This document shows, piece by piece, positions 38,752-63,785 of a stretch of 64,000 bases of DNA. The DNA comes from Rhizobium sp. AAP43 (GTDB taxonomy: Bacteria; Pseudomonadota; Alphaproteobacteria; Rhizobiales; Rhizobiaceae). A program made the translations under genes and the position numbers. Below the pieces are notes generated by a model that made no database searches, had not been told where the DNA came from, and saw only the letters and a program-made list of their open reading frames with translations. The DNA is taken from positions 62,001 through 126,000 of the forward strand of contig NZ_LJHS01000016.1 in NCBI RefSeq assembly GCF_001296045.1, given 5' to 3'. Position 1 is the first letter of the stretch, and every line of letters starts with the position of its first letter.

Positions 38752-39378
38752 TCAACTATGTGCAAAAATATCTGTCTCGTTCCAGCCGAGCAGATCAAGT
38801 TTCGCTCTTGTCGGCAGGAATTGAAAGCAGGCCTCAGCATGTTCAAGGCGACCATCTCGGATCAGCCGGGCATGAAGTTTGTCCCGCAGCGCATGGAGAT
38901 AGAGCACATCAGAGGCTGCGTATTCCATCTGTGCTTGCGAAAGCACTTCGGCTGCCCAATCCGAAGATTGCTGGGCCTTGGAAATGTCTACCTCGAGCAT
39001 TTCCTTGAGATTATCTTTCAACCCATGGCGATCTGTATAGGTCCGCGACAGACGGGATGCGATCTTGGTGCAAAAGACTGGAGCCGATGTCACACCAAAG
39101 GTGTGAAAGAGCACCGCAATGTCAAACCGACCATAGTGAAAGATCTTCTGACGCATGGGATCAGCCAACATGGCGACGAGGTTTGGCGCTTGCGTCTGAC
39201 CGGCTGCAATCCGGATGACATCGGCGCTCCCGTCGCCTGGAGACAGCTGGACAACGCATAGACGATCTCGACGCGGGACCAGGCCGAGCGTCTCTGTGTC
39301 GATTGCAATCGCATCCGTGTATCGCGCCGCATCTTCGGCAGAAATGTCACATTCGTGATAGCGGATCGTCGCAGGCAT
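38752..39378 (-). CDS. Short ribonuclease D-like 3'-5' exonuclease
   Basis: 208 aa. DEDD-type exonuclease domain only. Exo I is IAIDTETLGL (D and E), Exo II is KIFHYGRFDIAVL, and Exo III is MEYAASDVLYLHAL, with Tyr and Asp at the expected YxxxD positions, so it is the DEDDy class. The HRDC domains of full RNase D are absent; this short form is common in Rhizobiaceae. It should trim the 3' ends of RNAs. GGAGACGGAC lies just before the ATG. Confidence 0.9.
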   Translation of the reverse strand: MPATIRYHECDISAEDAARYTDAIAIDTETLGLVPRRDRLCVVQLSPGDGSADVIRIAAGQTQAPNLVAMLADPMRQKIFHYGRFDIAVLFHTFGVTSAPVFCTKIASRLSRTYTDRHGLKDNLKEMLEVDISKAQQSSDWAAEVLSQAQMEYAASDVLYLHALRDKLHARLIRDGRLEHAEACFQFLPTRAKLDLLGWNETDIFAHS

Positions 39379-39675
39379 GTCCGTCTCCAGTCCTTCGTCA
39401 TTGCTGGAAGCCTATAGCTCAAAGAGCCCGTCCCCGCCATCGATACAAGACACAAGTCAATCGGACCCAAGGAGAAGACGACCATTGGTTGAGCATTGCT
39501 CAAAATGCATGATGGCGGGAACTCTAAACCGTCGGCAGTGTCGAAATGATCAGACGTAGCTTTCGATTTCGCGCGAAAATGAGGGAACCAAAGGCGATGA
39601 TGCTCGTATCATCGCATAATTGAACATAAGTGATGTTTGCCCTAATCACAGCTATGCACTACGCGCACTGGTGCG
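39379..39675. other. Intergenic region upstream of the CCTCC small RNA
   Basis: About 300 nt between the RNase D-like gene and the predicted promoter of the small RNA. It must hold the RNase D-like promoter on the minus strand. I see no gene or strong motif in it. Confidence 0.4.
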
Positions 39676-39704
39676 TTGCAACAAAGATAGTTGGCATACC
39701 ATAC
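39676..39704 (+). promoter_or_regulatory. Putative promoter of the CCTCC small RNA (RpoH-like)
   Basis: TTGCAA (39676-39681) and CCATAC (39699-39704) are 17 nt apart and resemble the heat-shock sigma (RpoH) pattern of rhizobia more than sigma-70. An alternative is TTGGCA (39691) with TAAGAA (39714). Either gives a start near 39711-39726. Confidence 0.35.
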
Positions 39705-39710
39705 GACTCG

Positions 39711-39846
39711 CCTTAAGAATAAAGCATCGAAGCGACGCACTCCTCCTCCCAGCGTCGCTCGAGAGGATCGGCAATACTCCTCCTCCTCCCAATTGCCGAT
39801 CGAGTTTAAGAGCCTGGCGCATCCTCCTCCCGCGCCAGGCTCTTTT
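39711..39846 (+). ncRNA. Small RNA with three anti-Shine-Dalgarno hairpin loops (alpha-r14/Cuckoo-type)
   Basis: There are three consecutive perfect stem-loops. Stem 1 is 8 bp (39731-39738 / 39752-39759), stem 2 is 10 bp (39766-39775 / 39792-39801), and stem 3 is 11-13 bp (39810-39820 / 39832-39842). Stem 3 is followed by TTTT and acts as the terminator. Each loop displays a repeat of CCTCC: ACTCCTCCTCCCA, ACTCCTCCTCCTCCCA and ATCCTCCTCCC. CCUCC is the complement of the ribosome-binding site, so the RNA could pair with many mRNAs. This matches the description of the rhizobial alpha-r14/Cuckoo sRNA class. The 5' end is inferred. Confidence 0.75.
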
Positions 39847-39956
39847 CGTTTCAGCCTCCACGAAACTATTCTGGTGTTATGCCGTTGCGCTCCTTGCTTG
39901 AGAAAGCAAGACTGCCAATGTACACGCGGTTGAAATCAGCAAAGGGAGGGGTTCGG

Positions 39957-41378
39957 ATGGCTGTCAAATTCGGAACAAGTGGGCTTAGAGGCCTGTCTGT
40001 CGATCTGGTTGGCTCGGTATCGGCTCTCCACGCAACCGCCTTCTGCCGCCATCTTGTTGATCTTGGTCTTTCTTCCGGATCCCCGATCGTAATCGGTCAG
40101 GATTTCCGCCCTTCAAGCCCAGAGATTGCCTCCACCGTAATGGCAGCCGTGGCACGGATGGGATTCAAGCCGGTGGATTGCGGCACCATCCCGACACCCG
40201 CGCTCGCGCTTTATGGCACGTCTATTGGCGCAGCAGGCCTGATGATCACGGGCTCGCATATTCCAGCTGATCGAAACGGGATCAAATTCTATCGCCCTGA
40301 CGGCGAAATCGACAAGCAAGACGAAGACGCCATTACCAGGCTAGCACGCGAGCTCGCCACTGATGCTAGCGCCAATCTCGTCGAAACCGGCAGCGGTGAG
40401 CAGGCAGAGACAGAAGCAACCGGACTTTTCCTGAAGCGGAATTTAGGCGTCCTTGCTCCGGAGGCTTTAGCCGGCAAGCGCATTGGCGTTTACCAACACA
40501 GCTCTGTTGCACGAGACATGCTGGTCAGCATGCTAGAGGCTTATGGCGCGACCGTCTTTCCTCTCGGTCGTTCCGACCGATTCATTCCGGTCGATACCGA
40601 AGCGGTCTCGGATGATACGATCCGGCTTCTAGCAGGATGGTCGGATGAACTCGGCCTCGACTCGATCCTCTCAACAGACGGAGATGGCGATCGTCCATTG
40701 GTGACTGACGAGCATGGCCTTCCCCTGCGCGGAGATTTCCTTGGCTTGCTTTCTGCGGGCTTCCTCGATGCGCGAGTGGTGGCGACACCTGTGACCTCAA
40801 ACTCCGGACTGGAACGTGACAAGCGTTTCGAGATCAGCAGGACACGGGTAGGTTCGCCCTATGTCATTGCCGCGATGAATGAAGCGATTGCCGCCGGACG
40901 CGATCGGGTGCTCGGTTTCGAGGCCAATGGGGGCCTTATGCTGGGAACAGACTTTTCCCTTGGCACAAAAAACCTGAAGGCGCTGCCGACACGCGACAGT
41001 TTCCTGCCGGCGCTGGCAGCACTCGGAACGGCTGCGAACCGAGGCTTGCCACTCTCGCGACTCGTTGATGACTTCAAGCTGCCGGTCGCCCTTAGTGACC
41101 GGCTGGAGAATTACCCAACCGAACGTAGTCAGGCGCTGATGCAGGCCCTCACGACGTCGCGGGCGGCGCTTGATGACTTTCTATCGCCTTTGGGGAATGT
41201 GCGCTCCATCAACGAAGTTGATGGTCTGCGACTTACACTGACGGACGATCGCGTGATCCACTTGCGGCCTTCGGGCAATGCCCCGGAGATGCGCTGCTAT
41301 GTAGAAGCTGCGGACCAGAATTCTGCGAGAGACCTTTTGGAACGCGGCCTCGCCCTGATCGCATCGTGGAAGGGTTGA
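39957..41378 (+). CDS. Phosphomannomutase/phosphoglucomutase-family alpha-D-phosphohexomutase
   Basis: 473 aa. Four-domain phosphohexomutase. The N-terminus VKFGTSGLRG holds the substrate loop, and the phosphoserine loop is ITGSHIPADRNGIKFY (about residues 95-110). The Mg-binding loop STDGDGDRPLV and the sugar-binding GFEANGG motif follow. Domain 4 contains the phosphate-binding RPSGNAPEMR. The phosphoserine context GSHIP differs slightly from the usual ASHNP. GGGAGGGG lies 6 nt before the ATG. It interconverts hexose 1- and 6-phosphates, probably for surface polysaccharide; the substrate is not fixed by sequence. It follows the small RNA by 110 nt. Confidence 0.9.
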   Translation: MAVKFGTSGLRGLSVDLVGSVSALHATAFCRHLVDLGLSSGSPIVIGQDFRPSSPEIASTVMAAVARMGFKPVDCGTIPTPALALYGTSIGAAGLMITGSHIPADRNGIKFYRPDGEIDKQDEDAITRLARELATDASANLVETGSGEQAETEATGLFLKRNLGVLAPEALAGKRIGVYQHSSVARDMLVSMLEAYGATVFPLGRSDRFIPVDTEAVSDDTIRLLAGWSDELGLDSILSTDGDGDRPLVTDEHGLPLRGDFLGLLSAGFLDARVVATPVTSNSGLERDKRFEISRTRVGSPYVIAAMNEAIAAGRDRVLGFEANGGLMLGTDFSLGTKNLKALPTRDSFLPALAALGTAANRGLPLSRLVDDFKLPVALSDRLENYPTERSQALMQALTTSRAALDDFLSPLGNVRSINEVDGLRLTLTDDRVIHLRPSGNAPEMRCYVEAADQNSARDLLERGLALIASWKG

Positions 41379-42186: not shown

Positions 42187-43404
42187 TCAAGCCGGATTTT
42201 CGAGCTTGAACTGGACCACGTCGATGCGGCCGTGGCGGAAGCCGACGGCGCAATATTGCAGATACAGGCGCCACATGCGGTAGAAGCGGCGATCAAAGCC
42301 CTGTGGCTCGATCTTCTGCCAGTTCGCCATGAAGGCGCCGTCCCATTCAACCAGCGTCCGATCATAGTCCGCGCCAAAACGGAAAGCGTCCGTCACGGCA
42401 AGACCTGAGCTGACCGCTTGCTTTCCGAAGACCTCGACAGACGGCAGCATGCCGCCAGGGAAAATGTAGGTCTGGATGAAGTCGGCACTCCGGCGGTAGT
42501 GCTCAAACCTTTGTTCGTCGATGGTGATCGTTTGAACAAGCGCCGCACCACCTGTGACCAAACGTGACCGCAGGGTGTCGAAATAGGTCGGCCAATTCTC
42601 TTCGCCGACCGCCTCAAACATTTCGATCGACACGATCTTGTCAAACTGGCCATGACAATCACGGTAGTCCTCGAGCCGGATGTCTGCACGATCGGCGAGA
42701 CCAGCGCGCGCCAGGCGTTCCCGGGCGAATTGCGCCTGTTCGGTCGAGAGCGTCAGACCTGTCACCCGGCAACCGGTCGTCCTAATTGCATATTCCGCAA
42801 AGCCACCCCAGCCGCAGCCCACTTCCAGCACATGGTGGCCGGGACCGATCGACAGTTCGCGCAGGATGCGTGCGTATTTGGCCTCCTGTGCTTCGGCAAG
42901 CGACATTCCCGGTGAGGTATACAGAGCCGATGAATAGGTCATCGTCCTGTCGAGCCAGAGACGGTAGAATTCATTGCCCAGGTCATAGTGGAAGGCAATA
43001 TTCCGGCGGCTGCCTTTCTTCGAGTTTCGGCGTAACAGATGCCGGAGCCGTGCCAGGCGCCCGAAGATCGCCGAGGACTTCAGGACACTGCCCAGATGCG
43101 CTTCATTCATCACCGCCAGTTCCAGGAGATCGCCAAGATTGGGCGTCTCTAGCTCTTCATCAATGTAAGCCTGCGCAAATCCAAGTGTCCCGCCGGTCAG
43201 AATGCGAAACATGGCCTTTGCACTGCGCACCTGCAGGATGGCATGAGGCCCCGGCCGTTTGCCCGTGGCGTCGTGATCAGCATGCCCTTCGAACCGCAGC
43301 GTCAGGCGCCCTATGGCGATCCGATCCGCCCAGGCGCACAGCACGCGCTGCCAGAGGGGGCGCCCGATCTGGGCAGCGGCAATTTCACGTTCTGCATGAC
43401 TCAT
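42187..43404 (-). CDS. cfa: Cyclopropane-fatty-acid synthase-like SAM methyltransferase
   Basis: 405 aa. SAM-dependent enzyme acting on unsaturated fatty acyl chains of phospholipids. An N-terminal lipid-binding domain (1-110) precedes the methyltransferase core, with FHYDLGNEFYRLWLD, VLEVGCGWGGFAEYA (SAM site, about 195) and the EMFEAVGEENW segment. The ATG overlaps the DUF1365 stop (ATGA). It is the last gene of a three-gene operon divergent from rpoE–chrR. In Rhodobacter the corresponding genes belong to the RpoE singlet-oxygen regulon and include UfaM of furan fatty acid synthesis, so the product may be a methylated rather than cyclopropanated acid. Confidence 0.92.
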   Translation of the reverse strand: MSHAEREIAAAQIGRPLWQRVLCAWADRIAIGRLTLRFEGHADHDATGKRPGPHAILQVRSAKAMFRILTGGTLGFAQAYIDEELETPNLGDLLELAVMNEAHLGSVLKSSAIFGRLARLRHLLRRNSKKGSRRNIAFHYDLGNEFYRLWLDRTMTYSSALYTSPGMSLAEAQEAKYARILRELSIGPGHHVLEVGCGWGGFAEYAIRTTGCRVTGLTLSTEQAQFARERLARAGLADRADIRLEDYRDCHGQFDKIVSIEMFEAVGEENWPTYFDTLRSRLVTGGAALVQTITIDEQRFEHYRRSADFIQTYIFPGGMLPSVEVFGKQAVSSGLAVTDAFRFGADYDRTLVEWDGAFMANWQKIEPQGFDRRFYRMWRLYLQYCAVGFRHGRIDVVQFKLENPA

Positions 43405-44192
43405 GGCTTGCTCATTCCGTTCTGCATGACAATCGTGGACGCAATTGGCTCACTGGCAGGCTTGTGACGATGCAGCGGCACGCCTTTGCCCCAGAGCTTG
43501 AAGGCTTCCCAGTGAATTCCAGCAGTTACCTTGAGGGTCATCAGTGGGTAGGTCACAAGCATCCAGAACAGGCTCCGGTCGGACAATGCGATGCGGTTGC
43601 CGGAAAAGCGGGCAAAGAGAAGCGGGCCCGCCTCGTCGGATTCCCCGATATGGATATCGATTGCTTCAGCCGGCGGCTTGATCCGGAAATCATAGCGGCA
43701 GTTCATCGGTATGAACGGCGACACATACATTTCCTTCGCGCATTGATGGCGCAGCACAGGCTCGTCGCTATCGACCGGAATGACGTAGGTGTGGCGCTCG
43801 TGGAAAGTATTGCTGACTTCGTAGAGCATCGCTTTCATTTCCCCCTCGGAAGTCTGGCAGAAGTAGACCGTCAGAGGATTGAAAACATATCCGAAAATCC
43901 TTGGATAGCAGAGCATGCGAATGGTCATGCCCGCGGGATTTATGCCCGCCTCCTGCAGGCGCGCGCCAATCCAGGCGCGCAGCTCACCGGGAACGCCATC
44001 GCCATGATCAGCATCATGCACCGAATAGACAGCCCGGCGATTATGTCCGAACAGGCGAAGCGAGCGATCGAGTTGATCCAGTTCATCCAAGTCGATCAAC
44101 AGCGAGAAGACGCTGTAGCTGAGCTTATGCTGCTTGGGTCGTTTTCTGACATGCAGAACCTGACCAGCATAGATTGCTGACGATATGCTCAT
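43401..44192 (-). CDS. DUF1365 family protein
   Basis: 263 aa. DUF1365 proteins are of unknown biochemistry and almost always neighbour a Cfa-like methyltransferase and a flavin amine-oxidase-like protein. Typical motifs are GHVRKRPKQHKLSYSVF-type sequence at the N-terminus (here AGQVLHVRKRPKQHKLSYSV), CYPRIFGYVFNPLTVYFC (about residue 115), EVSNTFHERHTYVIP and PFIPMNCRYDF. Both ends overlap neighbours by 4 nt (ATGA), so the three genes are translationally coupled. Probably lipid modification at the membrane. Confidence 0.93.
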   Translation of the reverse strand: MSISSAIYAGQVLHVRKRPKQHKLSYSVFSLLIDLDELDQLDRSLRLFGHNRRAVYSVHDADHGDGVPGELRAWIGARLQEAGINPAGMTIRMLCYPRIFGYVFNPLTVYFCQTSEGEMKAMLYEVSNTFHERHTYVIPVDSDEPVLRHQCAKEMYVSPFIPMNCRYDFRIKPPAEAIDIHIGESDEAGPLLFARFSGNRIALSDRSLFWMLVTYPLMTLKVTAGIHWEAFKLWGKGVPLHRHKPASEPIASTIVMQNGMSKP

Positions 44193-45547
44193 TCGGCCGC
44201 CTCGAGCTGGCGCTCAACGACAATGCGGCCTGATTCATTTTCAACGTTCCAGGGACGTCGCACACCTCCGAGGGCCTCCGCGACGGCCAGTCCCGATTGA
44301 AGGCCATCCTCATGGAAGCCACTTCCGAAGTAGGCACCGCAGAACCAGGTATTACGCTGGCCCTGAAGGCTCCAGAGTTTCTTCTGGGCCATGATCGCCC
44401 CTGTGTCGAAAAGGGGATGTTCATACTGGAAGGTTCCGAACACCTTCGCTGGATCGACTGGCCTGCAAGGATTGAGCGTGACGAAAACGGGGCGGTCCGT
44501 CTCAAGCGATTGCAGCAGGTTCATCCAGTAGGTCACGCAGAGTGTTTCTGTTCCCTGGTCCGTTTCGTCGGCCACATAATTCCAACTTGACCAGACCGCC
44601 TTCCGCTTTGGCATCAGGTTTTCATCGCTATGCAGCACTGCGACATTTGGTGTGTACTGAAATGTACCCAGCAGCGTCCGTTCGCGCTCATCGGCATCTT
44701 CAAGCATGTCAAGGCTTTGGGTCGCATGAGTGGCAAGAACCACATGATCGAAGCGATCGACCCCACCATGGACGTCGAGAATTTCGACACCCGCACCACT
44801 CCGACGAATCCGTGAAACTGCCGTCGAGAGACGGACCTCGCCCGAAAAATCGGCCAGTATGCGCGCCACATATTCCCGGCTACCACCCTTGACCGTTCGC
44901 CATTGCGGCCTGTCCTTCAGAGACAAGAGCCCATGATTGGCGAAGAAACGGATAAAGGCGTGCAAAGGATAGAGGCGCATTTCCCTGGCCGTTGTGGACC
45001 AGATCGCGGCTCCCATTGGGAGAAGATGATCCTCAATGAAGGATGGCGCATACCTAGCTCTATCCAAATAATCACCGAGGGAGACAGCCTCCAGATCGAC
45101 GCGATCAAGAAGCGTCGGAGCCTCCTTATAAAAGCGGAGAATGTCGCGGATCATTTTCCAGAAGCGCGGACGCAAAAGATTGGATCTTTGCCCGAGCAAA
45201 CCAGACAAGCCTGATCCCGAATACTCGAAGCGTCCACGTTCCAAAGAAGCAGCAAATGACATGCTGGACGGAAGCGTTGGGACATTAAGGTGTTCGAAAA
45301 GCTTGACCAGGTTTGGATAATTCCGGTCATTGTAGACGATGAAGCCGGTATCGACTGGCAGACCCTTCGGGCCAGCATCGACACGAACCGTGTTCGAATG
45401 CCCCCCTGGACGGCCTTCGGTTTCGTAAAGCACGACCTGCGCACTCTTGGAGAGCAGCCAAGCCGAGGACAAACCAGAAATGCCTGATCCTACAACCGCA
45501 ATTCTCGGACTTGAACCAGATGCTGTCTTTGATACGCCGGCGTCCAT
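44189..45547 (-). CDS. FAD-dependent amine-oxidase-like protein (COG2907)
   Basis: 452 aa. Flavoprotein with the N-terminal dinucleotide site RIAVVGSGISGLSSAWLL and the RPGGHSNTV arginine/glycine motif, then VDTGFIVYNDRNYPNL. A C-terminal FAD-binding segment (NTWFCGAYFGSGFHEDG, then SGLAVAEALGG) closes the fold. The ATG at 45547 has AAGGAC 7 nt upstream, while the ATG at 45586 coincides with the predicted transcription start and is rejected. First gene of the operon with DUF1365 and cfa. By context it may desaturate or oxidise a methylated fatty acyl chain, as UfaD is reported to do in Rhodobacter; this is inference. Confidence 0.9.
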   Translation of the reverse strand: MDAGVSKTASGSSPRIAVVGSGISGLSSAWLLSKSAQVVLYETEGRPGGHSNTVRVDAGPKGLPVDTGFIVYNDRNYPNLVKLFEHLNVPTLPSSMSFAASLERGRFEYSGSGLSGLLGQRSNLLRPRFWKMIRDILRFYKEAPTLLDRVDLEAVSLGDYLDRARYAPSFIEDHLLPMGAAIWSTTAREMRLYPLHAFIRFFANHGLLSLKDRPQWRTVKGGSREYVARILADFSGEVRLSTAVSRIRRSGAGVEILDVHGGVDRFDHVVLATHATQSLDMLEDADERERTLLGTFQYTPNVAVLHSDENLMPKRKAVWSSWNYVADETDQGTETLCVTYWMNLLQSLETDRPVFVTLNPCRPVDPAKVFGTFQYEHPLFDTGAIMAQKKLWSLQGQRNTWFCGAYFGSGFHEDGLQSGLAVAEALGGVRRPWNVENESGRIVVERQLEAAE

Positions 45548-45590
45548 CTCAAGTCCTTCATAAAGCAATGTTTCAGACAATCTCATAGCT

Positions 45591-45619
45591 CTCTACGAAG
45601 TCCCATCGCGAGTGGATCG
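45591..45619 (-). promoter_or_regulatory. RpoE (ECF sigma) promoter of the flavoprotein–DUF1365–cfa operon
   Basis: On the minus strand CGATCC (45619-45614) is followed after 16 nt by CGTAGAG (45597-45591). The predicted start is near 45584. The arrangement matches the ECF pattern TGATCC…CGTA and mirrors the facing promoter on the plus strand. Confidence 0.7.
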
Positions 45620-45645
45620 GAATCCCAGGAATTTTTCGCTGACGG

Positions 45646-45674
45646 TGATCTGGCTTAAGTGAGCCGACGTAGAG
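45646..45674 (+). promoter_or_regulatory. RpoE (ECF sigma) promoter of rpoE–chrR
   Basis: TGATCT (45646-45651) is followed after 16 nt by CGTAGAG (45668-45674). Spacing and -10 are identical to the divergent site. The predicted start is near 45682, which suggests autoregulation of the sigma factor and rules out the ATG at 45681 as a normal start. Confidence 0.72.
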
Positions 45675-45785
45675 CTTTGCATGTTTGATGCAATTTCCAT
45701 CTCGGCAGAGGCGTGCCACAATGATGTCCGGCCCAGGGCTCCGACAGATGTGACCGCGAGTCGCCAAAGAAGGAAGAAAAGCGTC

Positions 45786-46358
45786 TTGAAGACAATAAGG
45801 ATCGACGAATCCGAGCAGGTGAATTTTTCGAAGCTCCTCGCATCTGTCGGTCAGGAACGGGACGTTCAGGCGTTCGAGACCATTTTCAAGCACTATAGCC
45901 CGAAGGTCCGCGCCTACATGGCGAAGCTTGCTCGGGATGGGCAGGCTGCCGAAGAGTTGATGCAGGAAACGATGTTGGCGGTGTGGAACAAGGCTGAGCA
46001 GTTCGATCCAGCGCGAGGAAACGTCTCAAGTTGGATCTTTACAATTGCCAGAAATCTCAGGATTGACGCGTTCCGGCGGGAAAAGAGGCCGACTTTTGAT
46101 CCAACTGACCCGGCTTTCGTGCCAGACGACGTGATGCCCGCCGATGTCGAATATGAAGAACGCCAAGAGGCTGACCGGCTGCGGCGTGCGATGGAAACCC
46201 TCCCACCGGAGCAATATGAACTGTTGAAGATGTCATTCTACAAGGAAGTCTCGCACAGTGCGATCGCGGATGAACTTGGCCTGCCCATGGGAACTGTGAA
46301 ATCCCGCATTCGCCTGGCCTTCGCCAAACTCCGCGCAGCCCTGGAGGAGCGGGCATGA
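45786..46358 (+). CDS. rpoE: ECF sigma factor, RpoE/ChrR-partner type
   Basis: 190 aa. Sigma region 2 spans about residues 20-90, with the core-binding and -10 recognition segment AEELMQETMLAVWNKA through GNVSSWIFTIARNLRIDAFRR. Region 4 spans about 130-185, with LPPEQYELLKMSFYKEVSHS and LGLPMGTVKSRIRLAFAKLR. The TTG at 45786 has GGAAG 9 nt upstream; the open frame extends to 45681. The downstream gene is a ChrR-like anti-sigma factor with ATGA overlap, identifying this as the RpoE type that responds to singlet oxygen and peroxides in Rhodobacter. It probably drives its own promoter and the facing cfa operon. Confidence 0.92.
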   Translation: MKTIRIDESEQVNFSKLLASVGQERDVQAFETIFKHYSPKVRAYMAKLARDGQAAEELMQETMLAVWNKAEQFDPARGNVSSWIFTIARNLRIDAFRREKRPTFDPTDPAFVPDDVMPADVEYEERQEADRLRRAMETLPPEQYELLKMSFYKEVSHSAIADELGLPMGTVKSRIRLAFAKLRAALEERA

Positions 46359-47035
46359 TGATCCAAGTAAACCACCATATCAGCGACGAACTGTTGCTCG
46401 ACTATGCGTCGGGCAACCTGTCTGAAGGATGGAGCATTGCTGTTGCCACGCATCTCGCCCTGAGTCCAGCATCGCGCGGCAGGCTCAAGCTGATGGAGCA
46501 TATGGGCGGCGGCTTCCTGGAGGCATGCGAGGCGGAGCCTGCGTCTAAAGAAGTGTCTACCGACGAGAGTTGGGCCCAGATGAAGGCTCGTCTGTCAAAC
46601 CCGGCATCGGTGCCTTCTCAGACAGTTGTGGCGTCCCCTGCGGCGGCCTCACCCGTGTTGCCTGAACCCCTTCGTTCTTATCTAGGCGGTGATGTCGACA
46701 AGCTGAAATGGCGCGCACTGGGACGGGGCGCATATCATATTCCGGTCGAAACGGCTGATAAGGATAGCCAGGTCAGGCTGCTGAAGATTCCCGCTGGGAA
46801 ACCCGTGCCTGAGCACTCACATGGTGGACGTGAGTTGACTGTAGTCCTCAAGGGTGCCTTCAGCGATGGTGCAACGGTATTCCGTCGTGGAGACATCGAG
46901 GAAGCCGACGAAACGCTGACACATCAGCCGGTGGCGACACCGGACGAGGACTGCATCTGCCTCGCCGTGACGGATGCCCCGCTGAAGTTCAAAAGCCTAC
47001 TGGTGCGCCTGGTGCAGCCAGTGCTTGGCATATAA
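46355..47035 (+). CDS. chrR: ChrR-type anti-sigma factor with cupin domain
   Basis: 226 aa. An N-terminal anti-sigma domain (about 1-85) joins a C-terminal cupin (about 110-220). In Rhodobacter ChrR the anti-sigma domain binds zinc through H6, H31, C35 and C38. Here H8 and H33 are kept, but the cysteine positions are S37 and S40 (HLALSPAS). The cupin metal set is intact: H154, H156, E160 and H190. It overlaps rpoE by 4 nt, so translation is coupled. It should hold RpoE inactive in the cytoplasm until a stress signal; how it folds without the zinc site is open. Confidence 0.92.
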   Translation: MMIQVNHHISDELLLDYASGNLSEGWSIAVATHLALSPASRGRLKLMEHMGGGFLEACEAEPASKEVSTDESWAQMKARLSNPASVPSQTVVASPAAASPVLPEPLRSYLGGDVDKLKWRALGRGAYHIPVETADKDSQVRLLKIPAGKPVPEHSHGGRELTVVLKGAFSDGATVFRRGDIEEADETLTHQPVATPDEDCICLAVTDAPLKFKSLLVRLVQPVLGI

Positions 47036-63158: not shown

Positions 63159-63279
63159 GACTTTCCCCCCAAGGACTGACCGGGAGGCGAAATGGCAAAT
63201 TTTTCATGCGCTGGCGACCAGCGCAATTTTCCATTCAGATCCATCGGAACACCCCGTCCGCTGCAGTTACATTTCTCTT

Positions 63280-63450
63280 GACGGCAGGTCTCCTGGCTCA
63301 CGGATATGTGCAGATCATCAACCTTCCCGCGAAACTTCGCAGTGGCTTGGCGCTCTCACGCCACCAGGATGAACGGCAATCCGCTTACAGTTGCGGGGGC
63401 AGCCACGGTCTTGGTCCCTGTATGGGTCGTCCTCACCGTGTTCCCTATTA
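63280..63450 (-). ncRNA. Cobalamin riboswitch
   Basis: On the minus strand the aptamer starts near AGGGAACACGGTGAGGACG. It contains GCCACTGCGAAG, the B12 box (plus-strand 63335-63347), then GGGAAGG, and ends with GAGCCAGGAGACCTGCC. All typical conserved blocks occur in order over about 170 nt. It lies about 120 nt upstream of the small ORF and 250 nt upstream of btuD. No T-run terminator follows, so translational control is favoured. Confidence 0.93.
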
Positions 63451-63785
63451 ATCCCCTCGAAGTCATCCGATGAGGGAACCGTCCCCTTCTGAATAGGGTG
63501 CCAAAGCTCTGCTGGTCAAGCCCCTCGCCTGCGCATCAATCAATTTCTGCGTTCTGTAATATCATTACACTACGAATGCAAGGAAATTTCCATGCATAGG
63601 CGCATGCCGTCTCAGACGATGAAAGCCTGGAGAAAAACCGGGCAAACGCGGGTAGTGCAGTCCGATCCCCCCATTAAGGGACAGTCGCCAATCCGCCGCC
63701 TGCGGAAGTGGCATCTCCGGGCCAGCTCAGCAAGCCAGCCGGAGATCAGGCGCCGTTCTTACCTGTGCCGGAGGTCGATTGGAGA
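63451..63785. other. Intergenic region between the riboswitch and the partial permease
   Basis: About 335 nt. It must hold the promoter of the riboswitch transcript; a weak candidate is TTGCAT (63581-63576) with TACAGA (63558-63553) on the minus strand. A hairpin ATCTCCGG / CCGGAGAT (63713-63720 with 63739-63746) could mark the 3' end of the permease transcript. The open frame at 63592-63795 on the plus strand has poor composition and is not accepted as a gene. Confidence 0.45.
63555..63569. promoter_or_regulatory. Palindromic operator candidate
   Basis: TGTAATATCATTACA is a 15-bp palindrome with 6-bp arms (TGTAAT / ATTACA) around a 3-bp centre, placed over the possible promoter of the riboswitch transcript. 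The AT-rich form resembles binding sites of Fur-superfamily metal regulators, but no regulator can be named from this alone. Confidence 0.35.

Follow-up and report, generated by a model that had tools for sequence, protein, structure and literature searches.

Organisation of the locus and fold of the RNA

The window, a 64,000-nucleotide stretch of the genome of Rhizobium sp. AAP43, contains a small RNA (sRNA) gene of the ar14 family between an exonuclease gene and a phosphohexomutase gene. The features of the locus are as follows, with the basis of each assignment in parentheses.

38752-39378, minus strand: ribonuclease D-like 3'-5' exonuclease (Pfam PF01612)
39653-39682, plus strand: conserved box ahead of the core promoter, with TGCA-N6-GCAC at about -72 relative to the putative start, similar to the LsrB site of the NfeR1 promoter (alignment)
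39691-39720, plus strand: sigma-70-like core promoter TTGGCA-N18-AAGAAT (scan, 9 of 12)
39722-39847, plus strand: ar14 small RNA gene, NfeR1-like (Rfam RF02344)
39727-39763, plus strand: hairpin 1, with CCTCCTCCC at 39742-39750 (fold)
39766-39801, plus strand: hairpin 2, with CCTCCTCCC at 39782-39790 and an extra CTC triplet in the loop (fold)
39808-39844, plus strand: hairpin 3, with CCTCCTCCC at 39823-39831, followed by TTTT and probably a Rho-independent terminator (fold)
39957-41378, plus strand: phosphoglucomutase/phosphomannomutase family gene with Shine-Dalgarno (SD) sequence GGGAGGGG (Pfam PF02878, PF02879, PF02880, PF00408)

An Rfam scan matches window positions 39722-39847 (+) to ar14 (RF02344) with 114.8 bits and an E value of 1.6e-20 over model positions 1-123, the gathering score of the family being 58.8 bits. 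The match extends over the full model, and the alpha-r14/Cuckoo class that an earlier note on this DNA had proposed is confirmed. The predicted fold of the same positions contains three stem-loops with CCUCCUCCC unpaired in every loop, the loop sequences being ACUCCUCCUCCCA, ACUCCUCCUCCUCCCA and AUCCUCCUCCC, in agreement with the anti-Shine-Dalgarno (aSD) display suggested earlier. The fold energy is -56.7 as compared with -32.4 ± 3.4 for shuffled sequences (z -7.1), and none of 200 shuffles equalled it. Within the window CCTCCTCCC occurs four times (0.73 expected; four or more in 1 of 100 shuffles), and three of these copies are inside the sRNA.

The stem of hairpin 1 consists of 7 perfect base pairs followed by a 1-nt bulge and 4 further pairs; the earlier description of three perfect stem-loops therefore holds for the number of hairpins but is slightly generous for this one. 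The stems of hairpins 2 and 3 are perfect over 10 and 13 bp, respectively. With its 13-bp stem and TTTT tail, hairpin 3 is probably a terminator, as had been claimed; it is absent from the output of an intrinsic-terminator scan with a loop limit of 8 nt, the loop of hairpin 3 being 11 nt. Judging from the -10 element at 39715-39720, the 5' end of the RNA would lie near 39726.

By description, the RNA is similar to ar14/NfeR1 (Smr14C2, SmelC397) of Sinorhizobium meliloti in its three hairpins, CCUCCUCCC loops, variable stems and T-tailed terminal hairpin, as well as in its sigma-70-like promoter, its box near -72, its length of about 122 nt and its presence in more than one copy per genome. The available text on that family likewise describes three hairpins, the aSD motifs of which are identical and ultraconserved and the stems of which vary greatly (PMC10746234, PMC7143759, PMC3927594). 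The window RNA differs from NfeR1 in that its box reads TGCA-N6-GCAC instead of TGCA-N6-GCAT, the NtrC site TGC-N11-GCA is absent upstream, and loop 2 has an extra CTC. SmelA075 and SmelA099 of the 'cuckoo' family, located at other loci, share the loop motif and modular hairpins with the window RNA by description; in the available part of PMC3927594, the former S. meliloti RNA has three CCUCCUCCC loops and the latter four.

Because all three hairpins of the Rfam consensus carry CCUCCUCCC, the ar14 family is defined by the three-loop form. The suggestion in the earlier note that this form would need defining has thus been overtaken by both the published description and the Rfam model. The window RNA is an ordinary, well-conserved ar14/NfeR1-type sRNA and is new as a locus only. 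AbcR1 and AbcR2 presumably belong to a different RNA family than the window RNA. They resemble it as alpha-proteobacterial sRNAs that act on transporter mRNAs and have a partial aSD loop, and the AbcR1 promoter carries an LsrB site, as far as the available portions of PMC10746234 and PMC3927594 describe them.

Elsewhere in the window, an RpoE-like sigma factor and a ChrR-type cupin protein are encoded beside a cyclopropane synthase at 42187-47035, with what we take to be a DUF1365-like gene and an FAD protein lying between, and the region is an RpoE-ChrR type stress module. The pair pointed out earlier as a nearby RpoE module is therefore real, but it starts 5.8 kb away, at 45681, and nothing tying it to the sRNA was found. 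A cobalamin riboswitch (104.7 bits) is located on the minus strand at 63266-63498.

Conservation of loops, stems and neighbours

The 31 genus loci examined (29 from the genus scan, together with L001 and L021) are among the best-scoring copies of 60 genomes, and all of them contain three exact motifs. The phosphohexomutase gene is located downstream in the same direction in 28, and 14 have it together with the exonuclease gene upstream, within 1.5 kb on either side. Both neighbours are also present in the named records UBNV01000021 and Rhizobium sp. RU33A. The aligned stretches of these records are letter-identical to L186 and L182, so that RU33A is probably a member of the genus as well. Around the exonuclease loci of 29 other genomes (28 from other genera and one from the same genus), the exact three-motif pattern occurs within 1.5 kb in one (L207). 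By coordinates, ar14 is 1.6-1.8 kb from the exonuclease in G017 and G107, and in a second scan the two were 0.2 kb apart in L078 and about 1.7 kb apart in L139.

The alignment comprises 30 rows from 28 distinct loci, L098 and L136 being duplicates of L186 and L182. Its rows were located via the exact motif, by which all 30 orthologues were retained and none was lost; L172, L175 and L178, in which the phosphohexomutase was not found, were excluded from the orthologue counts. The entropy is 0.00 in the loops, 0.00 to 0.58 in the stem arms, 0.64 in the box at 39655-39682 and 1.25 in the core promoter stretch at 39683-39721, reaching 1.72 and 1.33 in the flanks at 39612-39652 and 39850-39940, respectively. 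The earlier note had made its reading depend on loops that are better conserved than the surrounding DNA, and this is what the comparison of 0 with 1.33-1.72 demonstrates.

Among the 28 orthologues (23 distinct), 98.8% of the cells are paired. Thirty cells are changed on both sides as compared with 10.3 ± 3.7 in shuffles (0 of 500), six pairs are changed on both sides as compared with 2.6, and the covariation score is 0.161 as compared with 0.112 (0 of 500 shuffles); for further pair types, the count does not exceed that of the shuffles (14 vs 15.2). Changes on both sides are found in 2 of the 11 pairs of hairpin 1 and 4 of the 13 pairs of hairpin 3; in hairpin 2 there are none, and 8 of its 10 pairs are invariant in the genus. 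When 31 family sequences, mostly top-scoring copies, are compared, compensatory change is seen in 26 of the 28 predicted pairs, and loop 3 reads UCUCCUCCC in 3 of the 31 rows. How many CTC triplets loop 2 (39776-39791) contains differs between orthologues, the extra one being missing in 10 of the 28. Conserved loops on differing stems, as described in the earlier note, are thus a property both of the single molecule and of the comparison across species, and the invariance of the loops in the genus, the covarying stems and the far less conserved flanks argue for the selection on the loops that it had proposed.

Promoter, proposed mode of action and alternative readings

A promoter scan upstream of the sRNA yields one sigma-70-like site, at 39691-39720. 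With one consensus sequence for each type, the best sigma-70 match in the 28 orthologues averages 8.68 of 12 (lowest 8) as compared with 6.78 in shuffled sequence, and the best RpoH match averages 7.04 as compared with 6.86; the sigma-70 score is the higher one in 27 orthologues and equal in 1. The -10 element of the window is weaker than in most orthologues. None of the loci examined contains CTTAGAC-N16-18-CTATAT, the core promoter published for NfeR1.

In the upstream box (39655-39682), 11 of 28 columns are invariant as compared with 1 of 41 further upstream. Relative to the inferred start, its TGCA at 39655 is at -71 or -72, which matches the NfeR1 promoter, for which the available text of PMC10746234 gives an LsrB site TGCA-N6-GCAT at -72 to -57. 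TGC-N7-[GA][CA]A is present in the box of 27 of the 28 orthologues (2.6% of shuffles), TGC-N7-GCA in 20 (0.4% of shuffles) and TGCA-N6-GCAY in 11. The complete LsrB motif as published, TGCA-N6-GCAT, is present in 3 of the 28 and missing from the window promoter. TGCA-N6-GCAY occurs 9 times in the window as compared with 6.3 expected, which is unremarkable; therefore, the evidence for the box is its conserved position and not the motif alone. The NtrC site of the NfeR1 promoter, TGC-N11-GCA according to the available parts of the source set PMC10746234, PMC7143759, PMC3927594, PMC10253847 and PMC3616915, does not occur between 39500 and 39722, and TGC-N10-GCA is read by eye at 39601-39616. The conserved promoter box and the clean set of genus orthologues are useful for asking whether LsrB-type control extends beyond Sinorhizobium.

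It seems improbable that the locus is an ar14 copy that is silent or degenerate, or a mere terminator, without function of its own. Since ar14 is a multicopy family and only one of six copies in S. meliloti is reliably detected, as stated in the available text of PMC7143759, the window copy could be silent, and the weaker -10 element would be consistent with this. The compensatory changes and the promoter box conserved at the same locus argue against this reading, and so does the opposite orientation of the upstream gene.

We consider it very improbable that the RNA is an RpoH-dependent heat-shock stress sRNA of the CcsR/CIN1 type. In the available text of PMC10253847, the CcsR1-4 RNAs of Rhodobacter sphaeroides are placed with the cuckoo/CIN1 RNAs and use an RpoHI/II promoter, and a Rhodobacter RNA that is related and has two aSD loops is named in the available text of PMC3927594. 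The CcsR RNAs are processed from the ccaF1 (DUF1127) operon and have an RpoH promoter, but neither is found at the window locus, where no DUF1127 gene adjoins the sRNA and the neighbours are the exonuclease and the phosphohexomutase. NfeR1 is listed as RpoD in the accessible part of PMC7143759. The RpoH-like promoter put forward in the earlier note was rejected because RpoH-type matches in the 28 orthologues are no better than those in shuffled sequence, and the sigma-70 type is favoured.

We conclude that the window RNA is very probably a trans-acting, NfeR1-like sRNA of the ar14 family, about 122 nt long, that has a sigma-70-type promoter and a probable activator of the LsrB kind and that would block translation by pairing of its loops with SD sequences, as reported for NfeR1. 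The direct basis of this reading is the family, the structure, the conservation and the conserved promoter box. From these we infer transcription and its start, the regulator, the repression of targets and the growth conditions. Transcription would proceed from the sigma-70-type promoter and end at hairpin 3; the box near -72 is the probable binding site of an LsrB-like activator of the LysR type. The three stems would keep the three CCUCCUCCC copies single-stranded, and each loop could pair with the SD stretch of many mRNAs and exclude the 30S subunit; the three loops would therefore be redundant. By analogy with S. meliloti, the likely targets would be ABC-transporter mRNAs and ntrB. The available text of PMC10746234 reports that NfeR1 lowers an ntrB fusion and that a three-loop mutant does not.

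Loop pairing is stronger with the 20 nt preceding 54 start codons of the window (mean -5.13) than with 270 control stretches inside open reading frames (mean -3.04; p 3e-4), a difference that any aSD sequence would be expected to give. The ntrB gene of Rhizobium sp. AAP43 has AGGAGG before its start codon, and its duplex with the sRNA, at -11.8 to -13.9 kcal/mol, is split across separate short stretches. Since pairing with SD sequences is generic and the ntrB duplex is split, pairing names no target. The Hfq gene is present in the genome; the assembly yielded no 16S rRNA from which to take the ribosomal aSD sequence.

A cis-acting 5' leader controlling the phosphohexomutase, for example by loop pairing with its SD sequence, is very improbable: the gene starts 110 nt downstream of the sRNA on the same strand, this neighbourhood is kept in the 28 genus copies mentioned above, and GGGAGGGG pairs at -15.1 kcal/mol, a strength found at 1 of the 54 window starts, but hairpin 3 resembles a terminator, the gap to the gene is poorly conserved and varies up to about 0.8 kb, ar14 copies elsewhere have different neighbours, and the strong pairing is not conserved in 26 other orthologues (-4.9 to -12.9; L166, a match without a protein start, is omitted from this comparison). 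Cis control was rejected on the ground that the SD sequence is unusually complementary in the window and not in these orthologues; the adjacency that the earlier note singled out is that of a usual neighbour.

Copies in bacterial genomes and phages

Four ar14 matches at E ≤ 0.001 are present in the genome itself, two of which, the window RNA and C40:17076-17197, are above the cut-off. One of the weak matches, L003, is without CCTCCTCCC and was ruled out as an ar14 gene, and the other, L004, is a two-hairpin element in C23. The exact two-motif pattern is found at 5 places in 3 loci (window, C40, C23), neighbouring places sharing one motif; the reversed control gave none in this genome and one match in one other of 41 genomes.

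Above the cut-off, ar14 was detected in 60 of 60 genus genomes and in 137 of 151 family genomes (146 at E ≤ 0.001), the family scan having used stricter filters by which weak matches are lost. Both the distribution in the Rhizobiaceae and the multicopy occurrence of ar14 are thus found. Across the order, 4 of 41 genomes (41 genera, 40 families) contain the exact two-motif pattern, and these 4 represent three families. In a plasmid collection, 371 records, mostly of Rhizobium and Sinorhizobium, have DNA similar to a 221-base query, and none covers 80% or more of it. By title, at least 8 of 120 three-motif stretches come from outside the alphaproteobacteria (Streptomyces, Bacteroidales, Lachnospiraceae and others). 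In L115, L046, L053 and other Rhodobacterales loci, three-motif arrays lie near one another in groups of two or three, clusters that are perhaps CcsR-like.

In the element L004 (C23:60332-60442; L004:1501-1640), a pair of CCTCCTCCC hairpins immediately precedes an ATG. A repressor of phage type (PHROG 4, E 1.6e-27) is encoded opposite the element. The protein following the ATG has no PHROG match, and the next one matches PHROG 7674, the function of which is not known. Four of nine further open reading frames in the region match PHROGs, including an integrase and a DNA methyltransferase. L004 is possibly a phage leader of aSD design in an integrated element.

When viral contigs were scanned for the two-motif pattern, at least 120 stretches (L220-L339) were obtained, of which 118 provide at least 142 places with flanking sequence, three-motif arrays sharing motifs between neighbouring places. 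Both motifs are in stems of 8 bp or longer at no fewer than 52 of the 142 places and 36 of the 118 loci, as compared with a mean of 0.08 places and a maximum of 1 in shuffled flanks. The 36 loci among the matches listed fall into 17 sequence groups; they include at least L300, which looks like a coding repeat, and L324, which resembles an ar14 pair of the host. In general, flanks of host origin are possible within such viral contigs. Rfam scans of 13 sources gave scores that attain the ar14 cut-off for L222 and L225 only.

The element of L225 is located between phage helicase and exonuclease genes, that of L222 between helicase and Gam-like genes, that of L317 directly 3' of the major head gene, and that of L277 near a RecT-like gene; that of L256 precedes a processivity factor, its first stem being just 6 bp. 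PHROG matches were obtained for 14 of the 20 open reading frames scanned, and for none of the 5 from L245 and L253. In three of the groups, 7 of 31, 9 of 26 and 5 of 20 pairs are changed on both sides, in folds predicted from the same alignments and without a shuffle control; the folds of the second and third groups include pairs outside the hairpins.

Named phage records contain no match to two phage elements; for a third, the Sinorhizobium phage phiLM21 has a relative that is diverged. By eye, this relative (L340:3500-3580) is a diverged two-hairpin version in which the exact motif is missing; it lies between gp22 and gp23, downstream of repressor and Cro-like genes. No paper describing such phage RNAs was recognised in the literature searched, which did not include the main cuckoo paper (PMC4615179), and the novelty of the phage-borne forms is not established. 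We see about even chances that aSD hairpin RNAs, besides being a bacterial stress class, are a module taken up many times by alphaproteobacterial phages, with loops retained on stems that change in step, that they could tune phage or host translation, and that the class is common to host and phage. If so, the chromosomal ar14 RNA would be one branch of a riboregulator class common to both, and if the phage versions are functional, it would become testable whether phages control their own or host translation by a generic aSD RNA. RNAs of two or three hairpins with CCTCCTCCC loops are also carried by the phage contigs L226 and L245.
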